Source of the DNA: an uncultured Acidimicrobiia bacterium | GTDB taxonomy: Bacteria > Actinomycetota > Acidimicrobiia > Acidimicrobiales > CAIXPF01 | DNA length: 39,256 nt | Assembly: GCA_903921205.1 (NCBI GenBank) | Contig: CAIXPF010000150.1 | Span: forward strand, 1-39,256 | Reading direction: 5' to 3' | In this document: positions 3,317-33,566 of the stretch, one piece after another | Position numbering within the stretch: the first letter of the stretch is position 1 | Layout: each line of letters begins with the position of its first letter | Made by a program: the position numbers and the translations under genes | The notes under the pieces: model-generated | The model's database searches: none | Told to the model about the DNA's origin: nothing | Seen by the model: only the letters and a program-made list of their open reading frames with translations

Positions 3317-4840
3317 GTGACCGAGCCTGCCGACGCGGCGACCCCGGAGGAGACCACCCGGTACGGAGACGGCACCGGCGACCCGGCCGGCAGCGCCGAC
3401 CGCAACGGTTCCTTCGACGGCTACGACCCTACCGGGTGGTATGACGAGCTCGTCGAGGGCTCGGGCATGCCACGCGCCGCGGCACGCGAGCTGCTGGCCC
3501 ACCTCCAGTCGCTGACGCTCGACGAACTGCGGGCCCGACAACGCGCCGCCGAGATCGACATTGCCGCGTCAGGCATCACGTTCAGCCTCTACAGCGAGGC
3601 GGAGGGCAACATCGACCGGGCCTGGCCCTTCGACGTCATCCCCCGGGTGTTCTCCTCGACGGAATGGGCCCGCATCGAGGTCGGGCTGGCGCAGCGGTTG
3701 CGCGCCATCAACCTGTTCATCGACGACCTCTACCACGACCAGGTCTCGTTGCGCGACGGCATCGTGCCACGGGAGCTGCTCGAATCGAGCCCGGGATGGC
3801 GGCCCGAGTGCGTCGGCATCTCCCCGGCCCACCAGGTTTGGGCACACATCTGCGGCTCGGACCTGGTGCGCGACCGCGACGGCAGCATGTACGTGCTCGA
3901 GGACAACCTCCGGGTGCCCTCGGGTGTCTCGTACATGCTCGAGAACCGGCTGGTCACCAAGCGGGTGTTCGCCGAGCTGTTCGAACGCCAGTCGATCCGG
4001 CCCGTCGACCGCTACGCCGACGACCTGTTGGCCACCCTCCGGTCGCTGTCGGCCCGGCCCGACCCGATGGTGGTGGTGCTCACCCCCGGCGTGTACAACT
4101 CGGCCTACTTCGAACACAGCTTCCTGGCGATGCAGATGGGCGTGGAGCTCGCCGAAGGCGCCGACCTGTTCGTGGAGGACGACGTCGTCTTCCTGCGCAC
4201 CATCGAGGGACCGCAGCGGGTCGACGTGATCTACCGGCGGGTCGACGACGCGTTCCTCGATCCCGAGGTCTTCCGGCCGGACTCGGTGCTGGGGGTGCGC
4301 GGCCTCATGCGGGCGTGGACCGCCGGCAACGTGGCGATCGCCAATGCCCCCGGCACCGGGGTGGCCGACGACAAGGCCGTCTACTGCTTCGTGCCCGACC
4401 TGATCCGGTACTTCCTCGCGGAGGAGCCGGTCCTCGACAACGTGCCGACCTGGCGCTGCGAGGACCCCACACACCTGTCCCACGTACTGGCCAACCTCGA
4501 ACAGCTGGTGGTGAAACCGACGAACGAGTCCGGCGGCAAGGGCCTGCTGATCGGGCCGCACGCCACCAGAGCCGAGATCGACGACTACCGGGTGCGGCTG
4601 CGGGCCGAGCCCCGGGGCTGGGTCGCCCAGCCGATGCTCAGCCTCTCCGTCGCCCCCACCCTCACCCCCGGCGGGGTCGAGCCACGCCACCTCGACCTAC
4701 GCCCGTTCACCCTGCAGGGCGCGACGACCCGGGTCACCGCCGGCGGGCTCACCCGCATCGCGTTGCGCCGGGGCTCGCTCGTGGTGAACTCCTCGCAGGG
4801 CGGCGGAAGCAAGGACACCTGGATCGTGGACACCCCATGA
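3317..4840 (+). CDS. Circularly permuted ATP-grasp protein, catalytically intact type
   Basis: A 507-residue member of the circularly permuted type 2 ATP-grasp family, predicted carboxylate-amine/peptide ligases acting in the cytosol. Visible motifs are LEDNLRVPSGVSYMLENR (about 194-211), the LTPGVYNSAYFEH block, YRRVDD (306-311), and the nucleotide-binding VVKPTNESGGKG (about 398-409), followed by VAQPMLSLSVAP and RHLDLRPF. Every expected acidic, arginine and lysine position I can identify is present. The first 40 residues are a hydrophilic extension. It heads an operon with an alpha-E protein, a fused homologue and a transglutaminase-like protein, an association known from comparative genomics and proposed to make or edit small peptides. 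Substrate unknown. Confidence 0.9.
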   Translation: MTEPADAATPEETTRYGDGTGDPAGSADRNGSFDGYDPTGWYDELVEGSGMPRAAARELLAHLQSLTLDELRARQRAAEIDIAASGITFSLYSEAEGNIDRAWPFDVIPRVFSSTEWARIEVGLAQRLRAINLFIDDLYHDQVSLRDGIVPRELLESSPGWRPECVGISPAHQVWAHICGSDLVRDRDGSMYVLEDNLRVPSGVSYMLENRLVTKRVFAELFERQSIRPVDRYADDLLATLRSLSARPDPMVVVLTPGVYNSAYFEHSFLAMQMGVELAEGADLFVEDDVVFLRTIEGPQRVDVIYRRVDDAFLDPEVFRPDSVLGVRGLMRAWTAGNVAIANAPGTGVADDKAVYCFVPDLIRYFLAEEPVLDNVPTWRCEDPTHLSHVLANLEQLVVKPTNESGGKGLLIGPHATRAEIDDYRVRLRAEPRGWVAQPMLSLSVAPTLTPGGVEPRHLDLRPFTLQGATTRVTAGGLTRIALRRGSLVVNSSQGGGSKDTWIVDTP

Positions 4841-4880: not shown

Positions 4881-5861
4881 ATGACCCTGTTGTGCCGTAC
4901 CGCCGAGAACCTGTACTGGATGGGTCGCCACCTCGAACGGGCGGAATCGGTGACCCGTCTCGTACGGGAACACACCGCCCTGATCACCGATCTGCCGATC
5001 TCCTCCGGCGTCGGCTGGGACTGCCTGCTGGCCATCCCCGGCGAGACCGAGCTGTTCTTGCAGCGCTACGACGTGGCCGACGAGGCCAACGTGATGACCT
5101 ACCTGCTGGCCGACCACGCCAACGCCTCGTCGCTGGTGTCCTCGATGAGCTGGGCCCGCGAGAACCTGCGCACCACCCGGGCCACCATGCCCCGGGAGAC
5201 CTGGCGGATCCTCAACGAGCTGTCGCGCTACACCACCGAATCCGCGGCCCAGGGCGTGTCGCGCGGCGGCCGTCACGAGTTCTGCGAGCGGGTCGTGGGC
5301 GGGTGCCAGCGGCTGTCGGGGTTCCTGGCGGGCTCCATGGGACGCGACCCGGCCTGGCGCTTCTACCAGCTCGGCGTGCAGACCGAGCGGGCCGACATGA
5401 CCTCCCGGGTGCTCGACGTGCGCGCCGGGGCGCTGGTCTCGTTGCGTCACGCCCACGACGGCGCCTTCGCCGACAGCCAGTGGGTGTCGCTGCTGCGTTC
5501 CCTCGACGGGCTGCAGCTGTACCGCCGTCTCACCCGCTCGCTGGTCGAGGGCGACCGGGTGGTCGGGTTCGTGCTCGGCGAGGCGCTGTTCCCCCGCTCG
5601 ATCGGCTCCTGCCTGCAGACCGTGGCCGACCTGCTCGAGGACCTCCCCCACACCGCAGGCAGCGAGCAGGCCCGTGCCGCCGCCCGTACCGCCCGCCAAC
5701 GGCTCGGCGAGCTGCCCGCCGCCGGCTGGACCCCGGAGATGATCCACGACGAGGCCGACCGCATCCAGCTGTCGCTCGCCGCACTCGACCTGGTGGTCAA
5801 CGCCGTGTACTTCCACCTCGAGGGTCCGCTCGCCACGGCCCCCGGCGCGATCTCTGCTTGA
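4881..5861 (+). CDS. Alpha-E domain protein (DUF403)
   Basis: A 326-residue all-helical alpha-E protein. The signature LCRTAENLYWMGRHLERAES opens the protein at the N terminus. Further helices carry WARENLRTTRATMP and FYQLGVQTERADMTSRVLDVR, typical of the family. Alpha-E proteins have no established activity, but they are nearly always encoded beside permuted ATP-grasp proteins and transglutaminase-like peptidases, and are thought to be partners in the same peptide pathway. The gene starts 40 bases after the ATP-grasp stop, with GGGAGAA before the ATG, and ends 8 bases before the next gene. Confidence 0.9.
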   Translation: MTLLCRTAENLYWMGRHLERAESVTRLVREHTALITDLPISSGVGWDCLLAIPGETELFLQRYDVADEANVMTYLLADHANASSLVSSMSWARENLRTTRATMPRETWRILNELSRYTTESAAQGVSRGGRHEFCERVVGGCQRLSGFLAGSMGRDPAWRFYQLGVQTERADMTSRVLDVRAGALVSLRHAHDGAFADSQWVSLLRSLDGLQLYRRLTRSLVEGDRVVGFVLGEALFPRSIGSCLQTVADLLEDLPHTAGSEQARAAARTARQRLGELPAAGWTPEMIHDEADRIQLSLAALDLVVNAVYFHLEGPLATAPGAISA

Positions 5862-18849: not shown

Positions 18850-20331
18850 GTGACCTTTCCGCCGGGCACCACCGTGGTTCTGCGCGAGGTGGTCGACGGC
18901 CGTATCCGATCCGCCCGGCCGCTCCGGGTGGTCCTCGACGAGGCCGACCGCTTCGCCGGTTATCTGGTTCCCCGCTCGACGGTGGCCTGGCCCCGCCTCG
19001 CCGACGGGGTGACCCAGAGCCAGACCCCCGACCAGGGCTGGCAGCTCCCGTTGGAGCGGTGGCGTGGTCCCGGTGCGCTGTTCGTGATGCCGGCCGGGGC
19101 GGGCTTCGCCACCGTGCTGTTCTTCGACCGTGAGCTCGGCACCCCGCTGGGCTGGAAGGTCGACTTCCTGCGTCCGGCGGCCCGCCACGGTCTCGGCTTC
19201 GACACCGTCGACCACGGGTTCGACCTGCTGGCCTCCACCGACCTGAGCTCGTGGGAGACGAAGGATCTCGACGATCTGGCGCAACTGGTCCGGGTCGGCC
19301 TGCTCGCCGGTGACGAGCTCGACGCCTTCGAGGCCGAACGGGCGAGGGTCGAGGGCTGGCTACGCGACGGCGGGGGCGGCCCCTTCGACGAGGGCTGGAC
19401 CCGGTGGCGCCCCGAGGCCACGTGGGCCCCGCTCGCCCTGCCCGACGGTTGGGACGACCTCCGACGCCATCCCCGGGCGCGGACCGGACAGGACCGGCCG
19501 GCCGGGACCGGACCGACCGCGACCGCGCGGGCCGGGACCGGGCGGACCGGGCTCGGGAGCGCCGTGACGACGTCCCCGCCTCGGCCGGGGCCCCGTTGGC
19601 GCAGTGCCATCGGCATCCGCCTGCTCGACGACGAGGGCACCGTCCACCTCGACCTGGACCTTGCCGGCGGCCGGGCGTGGCTCGGGCACACACCTCCCGG
19701 TATGGTGCTGGCCCTGCAACGCCAGCTCGCACTGGGCTGGCAGCTCGGGGCGGACCATCCGGCCTTCGCCGCATTGGGCCGACGACTCGCCGACGCGCTG
19801 CCCGCAGGATGGTCGGCGCACTGGTCCGACGGGCGGCGGGGTGCGGACCTCGACGAGGCCCTGCTCGACGGCTGGCCGATTGCCGCGGCCGAGCGATGTG
19901 CCGCCGCCGGCGAGTCCCTCGGCAGCTTCGGGCCCCGTCTGTTCGGGGGGTTCGACCGTTGCATCGTGGTCGGACCCACCTCGACACCGAGCGGACCCGC
20001 CGGACCGACCGCGCCGACCGCGCCGACCGCGCCGACCGCGCTCACCGGGCCGCCCGGGAACTGCCCGACCGATCTGCTGGCCGCGATCGCCGCGTTGGAG
20101 ACGATGCAGGTGGCCGGGCACGATGCGGTGCAGGCCACCGCCGCACGCGCCGCCCGGCTGCGCGACCGTTGCGGACTCGGCGGTACGGGCCTGGTTCTGG
20201 CCGGACCCGCCGGGTGGACCGCACCAGGCGTGGTGGTACCCGGCCATGGCCGCGGCCTGCTGGCACTGTGCACCGACGACGCCGACGAAGCCGATCTCGG
20301 CGAACGGCTCAGCCACTGGAGCGCACCGTGA
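18850..20331 (+). CDS. DUF402 domain fused to a class III aminotransferase-like remnant
   Basis: A 493-residue two-part protein. Residues 1-205 match actinobacterial DUF402 proteins: WKVDFLRPA, GFDTVDHGFDLL, the DDLAQLVRVGLL helix and the FDEGWTRWRPEATWAPLALP tail. Residues 206-245 are a low-complexity Arg/Thr/Gly linker. Residues 250-320 read like the start of a class III aminotransferase (LGHTPPGMVLALQRQLALG, HPAFAALGRRLADALP). Then the PLP-binding core is missing, and about 330-493 resemble the end of that fold (DGWPIAAAERCA, LLAAIAALETMQ, AARAARLRDRC). No GK-type PLP lysine is seen. DUF402 proteins are nucleoside-diphosphatase-like. The aminotransferase part is probably inactive (inference). 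There is no stop between the parts. Confidence 0.75.
   Translation: MTFPPGTTVVLREVVDGRIRSARPLRVVLDEADRFAGYLVPRSTVAWPRLADGVTQSQTPDQGWQLPLERWRGPGALFVMPAGAGFATVLFFDRELGTPLGWKVDFLRPAARHGLGFDTVDHGFDLLASTDLSSWETKDLDDLAQLVRVGLLAGDELDAFEAERARVEGWLRDGGGGPFDEGWTRWRPEATWAPLALPDGWDDLRRHPRARTGQDRPAGTGPTATARAGTGRTGLGSAVTTSPPRPGPRWRSAIGIRLLDDEGTVHLDLDLAGGRAWLGHTPPGMVLALQRQLALGWQLGADHPAFAALGRRLADALPAGWSAHWSDGRRGADLDEALLDGWPIAAAERCAAAGESLGSFGPRLFGGFDRCIVVGPTSTPSGPAGPTAPTAPTAPTALTGPPGNCPTDLLAAIAALETMQVAGHDAVQATAARAARLRDRCGLGGTGLVLAGPAGWTAPGVVVPGHGRGLLALCTDDADEADLGERLSHWSAP
20007..20042 (+). repeat. 9-bp in-frame tandem repeat (TAP units)
   Basis: Three exact copies of gaccgcgcc plus a fourth with one end mismatch. 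In the reading frame they encode Thr-Ala-Pro repeats inside the aminotransferase-like region, where no such insert is expected in an active enzyme. Confidence 0.85.
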
Positions 20332-22091
20332 ACGCAGCCGATCGGCCGCCGTCCATGCTGCAGCAGATCGCCGAGGCGGCCGCCGCCGAGCGTGACGCCA
20401 CCCCGTTCGTCGCCCGCCACATCATCGGCCCGGTCGCGGTCGACCTCGACGCCTCCACGGCGCAGCGCTGGCAGGTCGTGGTGGCGACCGGTTCCCGGCG
20501 GGTCGGCGACGGACCACTCGAGCGGCCGCTGCTGGTCGATCTTGTGGGCCGGCGGTCCATCCGTCCCGACGCGGTGCTGAGCTGGGAGGGCGGTGAGCTG
20601 CGCCTCGAGGGCACCGGCGAACTGCCTGCCGACCTGCTGGGCTCGACCCCCGGAGCGGCAGCAACGGCAACGACGACCGGCTCGGCGCTCGGCCGCCCGA
20701 CCGGCCTCGACACACCAGGCCCCGGCCCGACCAGCCAGGCGTCATTGCCGACCGGACGGACGTGGTACCTCGTCACCGAAGGCGGGCCACCGCTGTTGCC
20801 GACCGTTCGGGCCGAGGCCCTCGCCCGGCTCGCCGACGCAGCCGGACCGGCACAACCCGGACCGGCATTGGCGGCGCTGCTCGCCGATCCCCCGTCGAGC
20901 GGGGCCGACCAGGCGCTGCGCGTTGTCGCCGACCATGGCGCCCGTCCCGCCGCCGCCGCCGTTGCGGCCGCGCGCCTGCGGGCCGCGTCGCCGGGCGGCA
21001 CCCGGATACTGGTGGTGGCCGAGGCGCGGCGGGCCGATGCCGTCGCTGCAGCCCTCGACGACCTGCTCGGCCGTCCCGATGCCGGCCGGGTGCTCCGGGT
21101 CGGGGTGACCGCATCGAGCGCCCTGGCCACGCACCCCCGCCTCGGCCTGCGTGCCGCGGTGGCGGTGCTGCCTCCCGCTGACGCCGCAGGGGCCGGGCTT
21201 GCCGAGTCGGCGGCGCGCCGACGCGAACACGACCTGGCCGCGGCGATCCTGGCCGAGGCACGGGCCATCCGGGCGGCCGCCGAGGCCGGTGCCGCGAGCG
21301 CTGCCACCGAGCACCGGGCGGCCGCCGAGGCGCTCGAACGGGTCCGGGCGAGCCGCGAGGGGTTCCGACGTCTCGAGGAGCTCGTGGTCCGGGTCGAACG
21401 GATGGAGGCCGAGCTGGCCGTGTGGTGCACCGACCGCGCCGTCCGCCTCGCCGCCGTGTCCAACGGTCCCCGACCGCAGCCCGACGGGCCGGCGACAGGC
21501 TCGCAGTACCAGGCCGCCGAGGCCACCGTCGGCCGTCTGACCGAACGCGCCGTCTTGCTGGAGCAGCTCGACGCCCAACAGCGTGACGTGCGACGGCTCG
21601 GGGTTTCCCGGCGCACCGTGCACCAGTGCGAACAGGCGGCCCACCGCACCCGCCTGGCCCATCTCGACGCCGACGCCGCCCTGCACCGGGCCCGTGCCGC
21701 CGAACAAGGTGCGGCCGCCGAGCTGGCGGCTCGGCGAGCGGCCCAGGACATGTCCGGGACCTCCGAGGCCGGGGCCGAGCGGGCCACCCGGCTGGCGACC
21801 GCAGCGATCGGACGGGCAGCGGTCGTGGTGAGCACCCCCGAGGAGGTGGCCACGAACCCGGTCCTGACCGCCGCCGACTTCGACGAGGTGGTCGTCGACC
21901 GGGCCGGATCCCTACCCCTGGTGACCCTGTGCCTGTTGGCGATGCGCTGCCGCGGCCCGATGACCCTGACGATGCAGGACCCGGCCGCGCCAGGGTCGTC
22001 GCGGCCACCCCAGCCCGCCTGTGCCGACCCCCGGTACCGGCGCTGGCTGACCGGCCCGGACCTCGGAGCGGTCGCCGGGCGCCCGCACTGA
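20328..22091 (+). CDS. Superfamily 1 helicase-like protein with degraded ATPase motifs
   Basis: A 587-residue protein whose layout resembles the first RecA domain of DNA2/NAM7-type helicases. After an N-terminal beta region and an Ala/Thr/Gly linker (about 105-145), residues 196-262 read RVVADHGARPAAAAVAAARL ... RILVVAEARRADAVAAALDDL ... VLRVGV. That is the Walker A-Ia-Ib order, but with the P-loop lysine and threonine gone. Residues 300-480 are a long Ala/Arg/Glu coiled coil. Residues 499-555 (VVVSTPEEVA, FDEVVVDRAGSLPLV, MTLTMQDPAAPG) sit where motifs II and III belong, with D-E-A read as D-R-A. No second RecA domain follows. A GTGA overlap couples it to the gene before. The family call is an inference; function unknown. 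Confidence 0.7.
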   Translation: MNAADRPPSMLQQIAEAAAAERDATPFVARHIIGPVAVDLDASTAQRWQVVVATGSRRVGDGPLERPLLVDLVGRRSIRPDAVLSWEGGELRLEGTGELPADLLGSTPGAAATATTTGSALGRPTGLDTPGPGPTSQASLPTGRTWYLVTEGGPPLLPTVRAEALARLADAAGPAQPGPALAALLADPPSSGADQALRVVADHGARPAAAAVAAARLRAASPGGTRILVVAEARRADAVAAALDDLLGRPDAGRVLRVGVTASSALATHPRLGLRAAVAVLPPADAAGAGLAESAARRREHDLAAAILAEARAIRAAAEAGAASAATEHRAAAEALERVRASREGFRRLEELVVRVERMEAELAVWCTDRAVRLAAVSNGPRPQPDGPATGSQYQAAEATVGRLTERAVLLEQLDAQQRDVRRLGVSRRTVHQCEQAAHRTRLAHLDADAALHRARAAEQGAAAELAARRAAQDMSGTSEAGAERATRLATAAIGRAAVVVSTPEEVATNPVLTAADFDEVVVDRAGSLPLVTLCLLAMRCRGPMTLTMQDPAAPGSSRPPQPACADPRYRRWLTGPDLGAVAGRPH

Positions 22092-30986: not shown

Positions 30987-33566
30987 CTATCCTAGCGGAC
31001 CCGACCCGGTGGACGGCAAGGTCGGGCGTGGTGGGGATGACGGGGCCGGGTCGGAAGACGGCGAGTGGTCGCCGCCCTGCCGGGCCTCGCTCGGCGCGGT
31101 CCCGGCGCCTGCGTCGGGGCCGAACCCGCCCGGGGCCGCCGGCGGGCCGCCGTAGCCGAGGGGCGGCCCGAAGGCGTCGGGCGCCGGGTAGGCCCCGCCG
31201 GGGTGTGGTTCGTAGCGGGGCATCATGGCCCCGATCGGCGACTCGGCGCGATGCGCCTGCTGGGCCGCCGTCAGGTAGGCGCCGTACTGCTCGAGGAAGC
31301 CGTCGGTCCGGTACACCGCACCGTCGAGGGTGGGGCCCTGCATGCCCCGATAGATGGCGTCGATGTCCTCGCCGGTGATGGTCTTGTGCTGCTGCAGGGC
31401 ATGGGCGATCGCTGCCAGGAACCAGCGGTTGTCGAACATCAACTGGTGGGCCCGGGTGTAGAGCTCCTGCAGCTTGGCCTCGACCTCGCGGTCGAACGCC
31501 TCGCGTTGGGCGTCGCTGATGTCGCTGGCCATGTGCGAGGTCAGGGTGTCGCCCATCGCCGAACGGGACAGCATCCGGCGGACCATGCTGGTGGCGTTCT
31601 GCATGTCGCCGCCCACGCCGACGCTGTTGTCGCCCTCGAAGAAGATGCGTTCGGCGGCCAGCGACGACAGCGAGACGATGATGTCGTGCTCGAGTTCGCT
31701 GCGCCAGCGGAACTTGCGCTCCTCGACGGGCACGTAGCTCACGAAGCCGCCCACGTCGCCGCGTTGTTCGATGGTGGCGATGTCGATGACCAGTCGGCGC
31801 CGCAGCAGGTAGCCCGACACCGCGTGGCCGGCCTCGTGCAGCGCGGTCTGCAACTGCTCGAGCTCCATCGATGCAGGGCCGTCGGCGAGGCCGTGCACCT
31901 TGAACGCCTTGGCCTCGAGCACGTCGGGCCAGCTCACCGTGTCGCGACCGTTGCGGATGGCCACGATGAGCGACTCGTTCACGATGTCCTTGATGACCGC
32001 GCCCGATGCGTGCGGCGACATCACGGCGAGCCGCTCGACCTGGTCGGCGGTGAGCACGTGGCGGATCTTGTTGAGGTAGCCGTCGAAGGTCTTGATACGG
32101 CCCTCGAGGTTCGGGTAGTCGACCTTGTACATCCGGTCGATACGGCCGGGGCGCAGCAGGGCCTCGTCGAGGGCCTCCGGCATGTTGGTGGCCATCATCA
32201 CCAGGATGCGGTATTTGGGCGGCTGCTTCGGCTTCATGTTCAGCGCCTGGCGGATCCGTCGGCTGACCATGCCCCGGGGCTTCTTGAGGCCGCTGAGCTC
32301 GGTGAGCAGTGCCTGCAACGTGCCCATCCCGCCGCCGCCGCCCATCCCTGCGCCCATCACGACGTTGTTGACGAAGGGGTTGTCGACGAACCGGTTGGCC
32401 CGGAAGCGACCGGCCGCCGGATCGGCCACCGCCTCGGCACGCAGCTGGGCGAGCTCGTCCTGCATCCACATGGTCGCCGTCGACTCGCTGACGTAGTGCA
32501 GGGCGTTGCAGCAGCGGTTGCGGGCCAGCAGGTGCAGTTCCTCACGGTCGACGCGGCCGTTGAATCCGCCGCCGAGCTGGCCGCGGCTGCCGAGGGTGTC
32601 GGCCTCGTCGAAGAAGACGATGACCCCGCCGTAGCGCAGCGCCAGCTTGCGCAGCTTGGTGAACAGCCGCTTCACCTTGAGGATGCCGACCCCGAAGAAC
32701 ATCTGGATGAACGCACCCGGGTCGACGAACACGTAGGGCTTGCCGGTCTCGCCGGCCACCGCCTCGGCCATGAGGGTCTTGCCGGTGCCCGGCGGCCCCC
32801 ACAACAACATACCGCCGGGTACGTGACCGCCCTTGTCCTCGATCGACTCCGGGTGCTCGAGGAAGACGATGTTCTCCTTCACCTTCTCGAGGACCTTGTC
32901 CTGGCCCCACACGTCGGTGAAACGGGTCTTGATGTCGCGCGGCATGTAGGTGTCGATGCCCCCGCGGGACAGGAACCAGAACATGCCGATGAACTGGAAC
33001 ATGATGTAGCCGAAGGCCAGGATCAGCTGGAAGAACCACGGCATGCCCGCCCCGCCGAAGGGGTTGGTCCACAGCCGGCCCGGCGCCTGCACCAGCGCCT
33101 CGAGGAAGCTCACGCCCCAGATCCGGGCGAAGATCATCAATGCCACGGTGACCCAGGCCACGACCTTGACCATGCGCCCGAGCCGGTAGCGCAGCCACGG
33201 GTTCAGCCTGGACATGCGGCGTTCCCACGCCCCCCACACCCGCTGTTCCCAGAACTGGTTGTAGCCGGCGCTGCGTTCGCAGATGAACAGGTGCACCTGG
33301 TGCAGGATCTCGAGCCCCCCGGCGAGGAACAGCCACCACTTGCTGTAGGTCTGGTCGCGTACGACATCGCCCCACGGCATGATGGGCACGTCCTGCTGCT
33401 TGATGGCGATCGACAGCGCCAGGACCGCAGCGATGGCGACCAACAACCGGGCCCGGTCCCAGAACATGATGGGGCGGCGGGTGAGCGGCTCGTGGTCGTC
33501 GACCACGGGCTCGTGCACCGGCCCGGGCGGGCCGGCCAGGAACGAATCAGGCAGGGGAAGGCTCAT
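30987..33566 (-). CDS. Divergent FtsH-like membrane AAA+ metalloprotease
   Basis: An 859-residue protein. Four hydrophobic segments (about 38-55, 77-95, 132-152, 176-199) replace the usual two of FtsH. The AAA module has Walker A GPPGTGKT (257-264), pore loop MFFGVG, Walker B VFFDEAD (317-323) and the Arg fingers in RPGRIDR (472-478). About 70 extra residues, with RCC and a Gly run, are inserted after Walker B. The M41 zinc protease has HEAGH (577-581) and Asp654, the same spacing as FtsH, so it should be active. The tail (785-859) is Pro/Gly rich. It would degrade membrane or cytosolic proteins. GAGAGGA precedes the ATG; a lipoprotein gene ends 27 bases upstream. Confidence 0.88.
30989..31019 (-). 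promoter_or_regulatory. Promoter candidate for rpmB-rpmG
   Basis: On the minus strand TTGCCG (31019-31014) is followed after 19 bases by TAGGAT (30994-30989). The leader to rpmB is about 55 bases and carries GAGGAA. The -10 overlaps the TAG stop of the AAA protease gene. I see no clear Zur-type palindrome. Confidence 0.4.

Follow-up and report, generated by a model that had tools for sequence, protein, structure and literature searches.

The window analysed here, a stretch of 39,256 nucleotides from an uncultured Acidimicrobiia bacterium (contig CAIXPF010000150.1), carries on its forward strand an unbroken frame of 493 codons that runs from a GTG start at 18850 to a TGA stop at 20331. The original prediction had read the frame at 18850-20331 as a DUF402 region joined through a linker to the two ends of an aminotransferase, and both the frame itself and the profile matches confirm that this fusion gene is real. 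The Thr-Ala-Pro repeat seen within it is genuine too (residues 386-396), and is private to the source species. The parts of the gene, and the gene that directly follows it, are:

18850..20331, + strand: whole gene (493 aa, single open frame), made up of FomD-like domain, linker and compacted class III aminotransferase domain
18856..19464, + strand: FomD/DUF402 domain, residues 3-205 (NF049998 E 3e-24; PDB 3cbt E 5e-16, 5zdm E 8e-15; dN/dS 0.21-0.25)
19156..19158, + strand: Lys103, at the FomD Tyr107 position of WYVN, here WKVD (all 5 fusions have Lys, 46 of 47 distinct non-fusion relatives Tyr)
19210..19275, + strand: acidic region with the metal-ligand positions of the FomD domain, retained (D121, D125, D139, D141/D142; alignment with 5zdm, 3cbt and relatives)
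19465..19593, + strand: low-complexity linker, residues 206-248, varying between species in length and sequence
19594..19809, + strand: N-terminal segment of the aminotransferase, residues 249-320 (matches true enzymes by profile, E 4.6e-7; weak PDB matches to glutamate-1-semialdehyde aminomutase, GSAM, and D-phenylglycine aminotransferase)
19810..19926, + strand: compacted core, in place of the PLP-phosphate, ring-stacking and Asp segments (42 residues from landmark to landmark; G005 has 127, true GSAM 159-169)
19927..19950, + strand: what is left of the Schiff-base lysine loop, with FGPRLFGG in place of (L/F)GKxxGGG (alignment with G001, G005 and 16 true enzymes)
19933-19935, + strand: Pro362, at the Schiff-base Lys position (Ala in G001, Glu in G005, Lys in the 16 true enzymes aligned)
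20005..20037, + strand: run of Thr-Ala-Pro (residues 386-396), ahead of the small domain in a variable segment (source species only)
20074..20328, + strand: aminotransferase small-domain remnant, residues 409-493 (match to G005 E 1e-4, G001 to G005 7e-7; dN/dS 0.13-0.16 for residues 405-493)
20328..22091, + strand: downstream gene, its start overlapping the fusion's stop codon (GTGA); AAA_11 is matched weakly, at E 0.013

Elsewhere in the window, a CP_ATPgrasp_2 protein (3317-4840, + strand) is followed by an Alpha-E domain protein (4881-5861, + strand), a known conserved gene pair, and an FtsH-like protein (AAA plus peptidase M41; 30987-33566, - strand) has its AAA match split in two stretches.

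The same compacted fusion is present in four species of the genus, each from a separate assembly: the source species (G000), G003 (83% identical to the source species), G002 (73%) and G001 (65% in the FomD part and 52% in the remainder). A longer fusion of 561 residues, with a nearly full-length aminotransferase, occurs in G005, which belongs to the sister genus g3 (Acidimicrobiia MAG Dino_bin48, L005/L023). A search of relatives for the same fusion had been proposed as a check on the prediction, and it thus supplied an intermediate in addition to the four species of the genus. The fusion was not found in G004, from another genus of the family. The four relatives are MAGs of Acidimicrobiia or Acidimicrobiales, one of them labelled Ferrithrix, and when 84,980 species genomes were scanned, nothing was returned beyond these fusions and two unrelated aminotransferases. 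Of 397 genomes sampled from the order, 23 had a FomD relative (E <= 0.001), as did 36 of 396 sampled from the phylum (E <= 1e-8); at the inspected loci of both samples these relatives appear as stand-alone genes, and no fusion was seen there outside this family. With the aminotransferase half of G005 as query, tblastn found no aminotransferase at the inspected FomD loci of the order, and seven wider FomD loci of the phylum yielded none either. The idea that FomD and an aminotransferase once formed an operon in an ancestor within the phylum was considered and rejected, since the apparent two-domain matches proved to be alignment run-ons and the two kinds of gene were not adjacent in the checked loci. 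The fusion appears to be lineage-specific, belonging to genera g1 (that of the source species) and g3 of the family, and a literature search for a DUF402-aminotransferase fusion found no paper.

The product of the downstream gene has a Walker-B-like VVVDRAGS and no evident Walker A lysine. This gene is 74% identical in G003, diverged in G001 and reduced to a 17-codon scrap in G002, and was not found when looked for in G005; it may encode an eroded DNA2/NAM7-type helicase-like protein. Because G002 keeps a constrained fusion but only a scrap of its neighbour, the downstream gene is dispensable. A role in a defence system was also considered and set aside, neither the fusion gene nor the downstream gene having a PADLOC match.

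When searched alone, the aminotransferase half of the source species has no match in Pfam, and residues 252-316 match hemL weakly in single-sequence searches (E 0.04 with the whole protein, 0.017 with the half alone). A profile of this half built from the four species of the genus, without G005, matched 15 true aminotransferases over its first 75 columns with 92.6% probability and an E-value of 4.6e-7; with G005 added, the match to true enzymes spans the start through the small domain (E 1e-10). The second half of G005 is recognized as hemL (E 1e-23) and as Pfam Aminotran_3 (E 1e-16), and a direct match to G005 was obtained for the C-terminal piece (E 1e-4 with the source species, 7e-7 with G001). 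By these sequence comparisons, the second half shares ancestry with class III (glutamate-1-semialdehyde aminomutase-like) aminotransferases, and the identity first proposed for it stands.

Structure prediction of this half, suggested earlier as a check, had a divided outcome. AlphaFold2 supplied only with the five fusions as alignment reached a pLDDT of 43.7 overall (about 70-85 for residues 310-360), and the resulting full-length model was discarded as too weak for use as a whole. For the aminotransferase half, a ten-sequence alignment including true enzymes, which favours their fold, gave a compact alpha/beta domain with a pLDDT of 77.6 and a pTM of 0.70; over its whole length this model matches GSAM 2zsm, with 228 residues aligned at Z 13.0 and an rmsd of 3.8 A. 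The best 50 structural matches are all PLP enzymes of fold type I with close Z values and, therefore, no subfamily is singled out. Because true aminotransferases were in the alignment, the support that the model lends to the fold is partial: it shows that the remnant could be accommodated in a fold-type-I domain and is no independent proof of that fold.

The original prediction also held that the PLP-binding signatures were missing. This is correct for the SGTEA phosphate cup, which G005 has as SGNEA and the genus has lost, and for the DE(V/I) segment, of which G005 keeps DE and the genus nothing. The Schiff-base loop, on the other hand, persists in mutated form: in an alignment with 16 true enzymes, all of which have the Lys of GKxxGGG, it reads FGEALFGG in G005, FGAALFGG in G001 and FGPRLFGG, with Pro for Lys, in the source species, G002 and G003. 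The roughly 200 residues said to be missing were an overestimate. From one fixed landmark to the other, the core of true GSAM spans 159-169 residues and that of G005 127, but the cores of the genus span no more than 42-47 (42 in the source species). This amounts to a genus deficit of 80-85 residues relative to G005 and of about 120 relative to true enzymes; the source species is short of a further ~40 residues at the C-terminus. Since G005 is near full-length yet already has Glu in place of the lysine, and the core is gone only in the genus, parsimony suggests that lysine loss probably preceded core deletion. Judging from its sequence, the remnant almost certainly carries out no PLP chemistry; class III aminotransferases with the lysine are encoded elsewhere in the source genome (G000:C95, C64) and, therefore, the remnant is unneeded for that chemistry. 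The Thr-Ala-Pro run is absent from G002 and G003. In G001 (L024 4320-4752), an Asp-Pro run occupies the same slot in the variable segment of the remnant, so that this slot seems to expand independently.

Selection was assessed by pairwise dN/dS (Nei-Gojobori). Comparison of the two halves, another of the checks proposed, found them alike in the closest set (G000, G002 and G003), where the FomD half gives 0.21-0.25 and the aminotransferase half 0.21-0.24; in pairs with the more distant G001, they give 0.25-0.36 and 0.38-0.58, respectively. Within the closest set, residues 405-493, in the small-domain remnant, give 0.13-0.16, and the linker is under no clear constraint. The flanking intact genes have values of 0.06-0.18 and the downstream gene 0.43. 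Both halves of the fusion are under purifying selection. With its catalytic residues lost while the rest stays under such selection, the aminotransferase half would qualify as a pseudoenzyme. A stable pseudoenzyme domain was one of two readings offered at the outset; the shared fusion, the remnant dN/dS of about 0.2, the loss of lysine and then core, and the coherent predicted fold all speak for it.

Residues 5-203 of the first half match NCBIfam NF049998 (FomD; profile 3-205) with an E-value of 3.1e-24, and in the PDB the half matches SC4828 (3cbt) and FomD (5zdm); the Pfam DUF402 model alone gives a sub-threshold match. The NF049998 score is 85.8 bits, below the equivalog cut-off of 320 bits and, therefore, the domain is not FomD itself. 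Family f73 of the phylum contains many stand-alone FomD-like genes (L061, L089 and similar loci; E 1e-29 to 1e-41). In all five fusions, the WYVN motif of FomD is WK(V/I)D, with Lys at a position where only one of the 47 distinct non-fusion relatives lacks Tyr. Two residues past that position Asn is replaced by Asp and, two later, Glu/Gln by Leu/Phe/Met. By alignment, the tyrosine is residue 111 of the 5zdm chain, which we take to be FomD Tyr107, presuming that the 211-residue chain is a four-residue tag plus the 207-residue protein; this assignment is supported by there being only one other Tyr, near residue 36, in the aligned part of the chain. Tyr107 is said to have been proposed as the water activator of FomD by Sato et al. 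in 2018. The loss of this near-invariant Tyr from the FomD half, as read from the alignment, is a new observation of the present analysis. Consequently, the description of the half as nucleoside-diphosphatase-like fits its family membership and is put in doubt for its activity, the proposed catalytic residue being replaced throughout the fusions. D121, D125, D139 and D141 align with conserved acidic positions of 5zdm, 3cbt and relatives and are predicted metal ligands; both an acidic network and a catalytic Asp have been described for DUF402 enzymes (PMC11602121). The FomD half of the fusion may also be without catalysis, and hydrolysis by it is rather probably absent or reduced.

On balance, we favour, with moderate confidence, the view that the product of the fusion gene is a double pseudoenzyme, specific to this lineage and retained for a role in binding or scaffolding. 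A fuller version, to which we give slightly less than even credence, is that a fold-type-I core miniaturised to about 245 residues, lacking both lysine and cofactor cup, and a FomD barrel devoid of the Tyr are both dead and form a conserved ligand-sensing or scaffold protein, and that the living intermediate records fusion, then lysine loss, then core loss. As the Tyr is lost and the acidic ligands are kept, the FomD barrel would probably bind a nucleotide-like ligand and metal with little or no hydrolysis. The mini-aminotransferase domain, in which no PLP aldimine should be possible, is probably a folded dimerisation or protein-docking module, and the whole protein could act as a ligand-responsive adaptor or scaffold.

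The Lys might instead be a functional substitute for the Tyr, in which case the FomD half would be active. The protein would then be a hydrolase with a regulatory tail, cleaving a nucleotide-like substrate by means of water activated by the Lys or by an Asp, while the dead aminotransferase half regulates, stabilises or dimerises it. This we consider possible but distinctly less probable. In its favour, the acidic metal-ligand positions are kept and the FomD half is strongly conserved, and the water activator of DUF402 proteins is debated, being reportedly the Tyr in FomD. The other candidate is an Asp (PMC11602121). However, a residue so nearly invariant among relatives is replaced in every one of the fusions, with the Asn and Glu/Gln substitutions close by, and a double pseudoenzyme remains the preferred reading.

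Decay of a gene that is in frame by chance, the second of the readings offered at the outset, is very improbable and contradicted by the present data. Residues were indeed lost stepwise, the neighbouring gene is almost gone in G002 and the aminotransferase half evolves faster in comparisons with G001, but in three species pairs the remnant is as constrained as the FomD half, at about 0.2, whereas the aminotransferase half, when simulated under neutrality at 74% GC, had a median dN/dS near 1 and a minimum of 0.48. Stops arose in 72-91% of these runs, yet none of the five genomes has a stop or frameshift in the fusion gene. More improbable still is an unrelated C-terminal domain with a chance resemblance to aminotransferases; the source-species half has no Pfam match of its own, but the profile match holds without the G005 rows, G005 forms a bridge to hemL, the C-terminal piece is linked to it in two species and the fold match extends across the whole predicted model. 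Finally, an assembly or binning error that joined two genes or lost the middle of an aminotransferase, which the original prediction had named as a refuting case and for which it could be said that all genomes are draft assemblies, MAGs among them, is ruled out for practical purposes by an identical junction and deletion in four separately assembled species with remnant identities of 52-83%.

Selection often preserves enzyme domains that are dead, usually with the whole fold intact. In the present protein, a domain derived from an ancient cofactor-dependent fold is cut to roughly 60% of its length yet still constrained, its fused partner is also without a near-invariant Tyr, and a sister genus holds an intermediate. 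This provides a compact test of how far a fold-type-I enzyme can shrink and stay useful. In addition, the fusion pairs DUF402, a domain about whose roles in the cell little is known, with a new partner. With GSAM and other class III aminotransferases (PF00202, TIGR00713), the second half has in common its ancestry, its segment order and, in a model built with true enzymes in the alignment, its fold; it differs in being without the Schiff-base lysine, the SGTEA cup, DE(V/I) and about 120 core residues, so that PLP could not be held in the known way. SPTLC1 of serine palmitoyltransferase is likewise a catalytically dead fold-type-I protein in which the lysine is gone and the role is structural. 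SPTLC1, however, retains almost its entire length and has an active paralogue as its partner, whereas the fusion has lost the core and carries a hydrolase-like partner domain in the same chain. The DUF402 nucleotide hydrolases FomD, SC4828 and Ntdp (PDB 5zdm, 3cbt and 3exm) resemble the first half in domain length, sequence and acidic metal-ligand region, but they have no second domain and carry WYVN where the fusion has WKVD. In RNase W/FAU-1, a multidomain archaeal ribonuclease, the DUF402 domain is joined to a partner other than an aminotransferase; as in the present case, the DUF402 barrel has been taken into a fusion and its use of ligands altered (PMC11602121).
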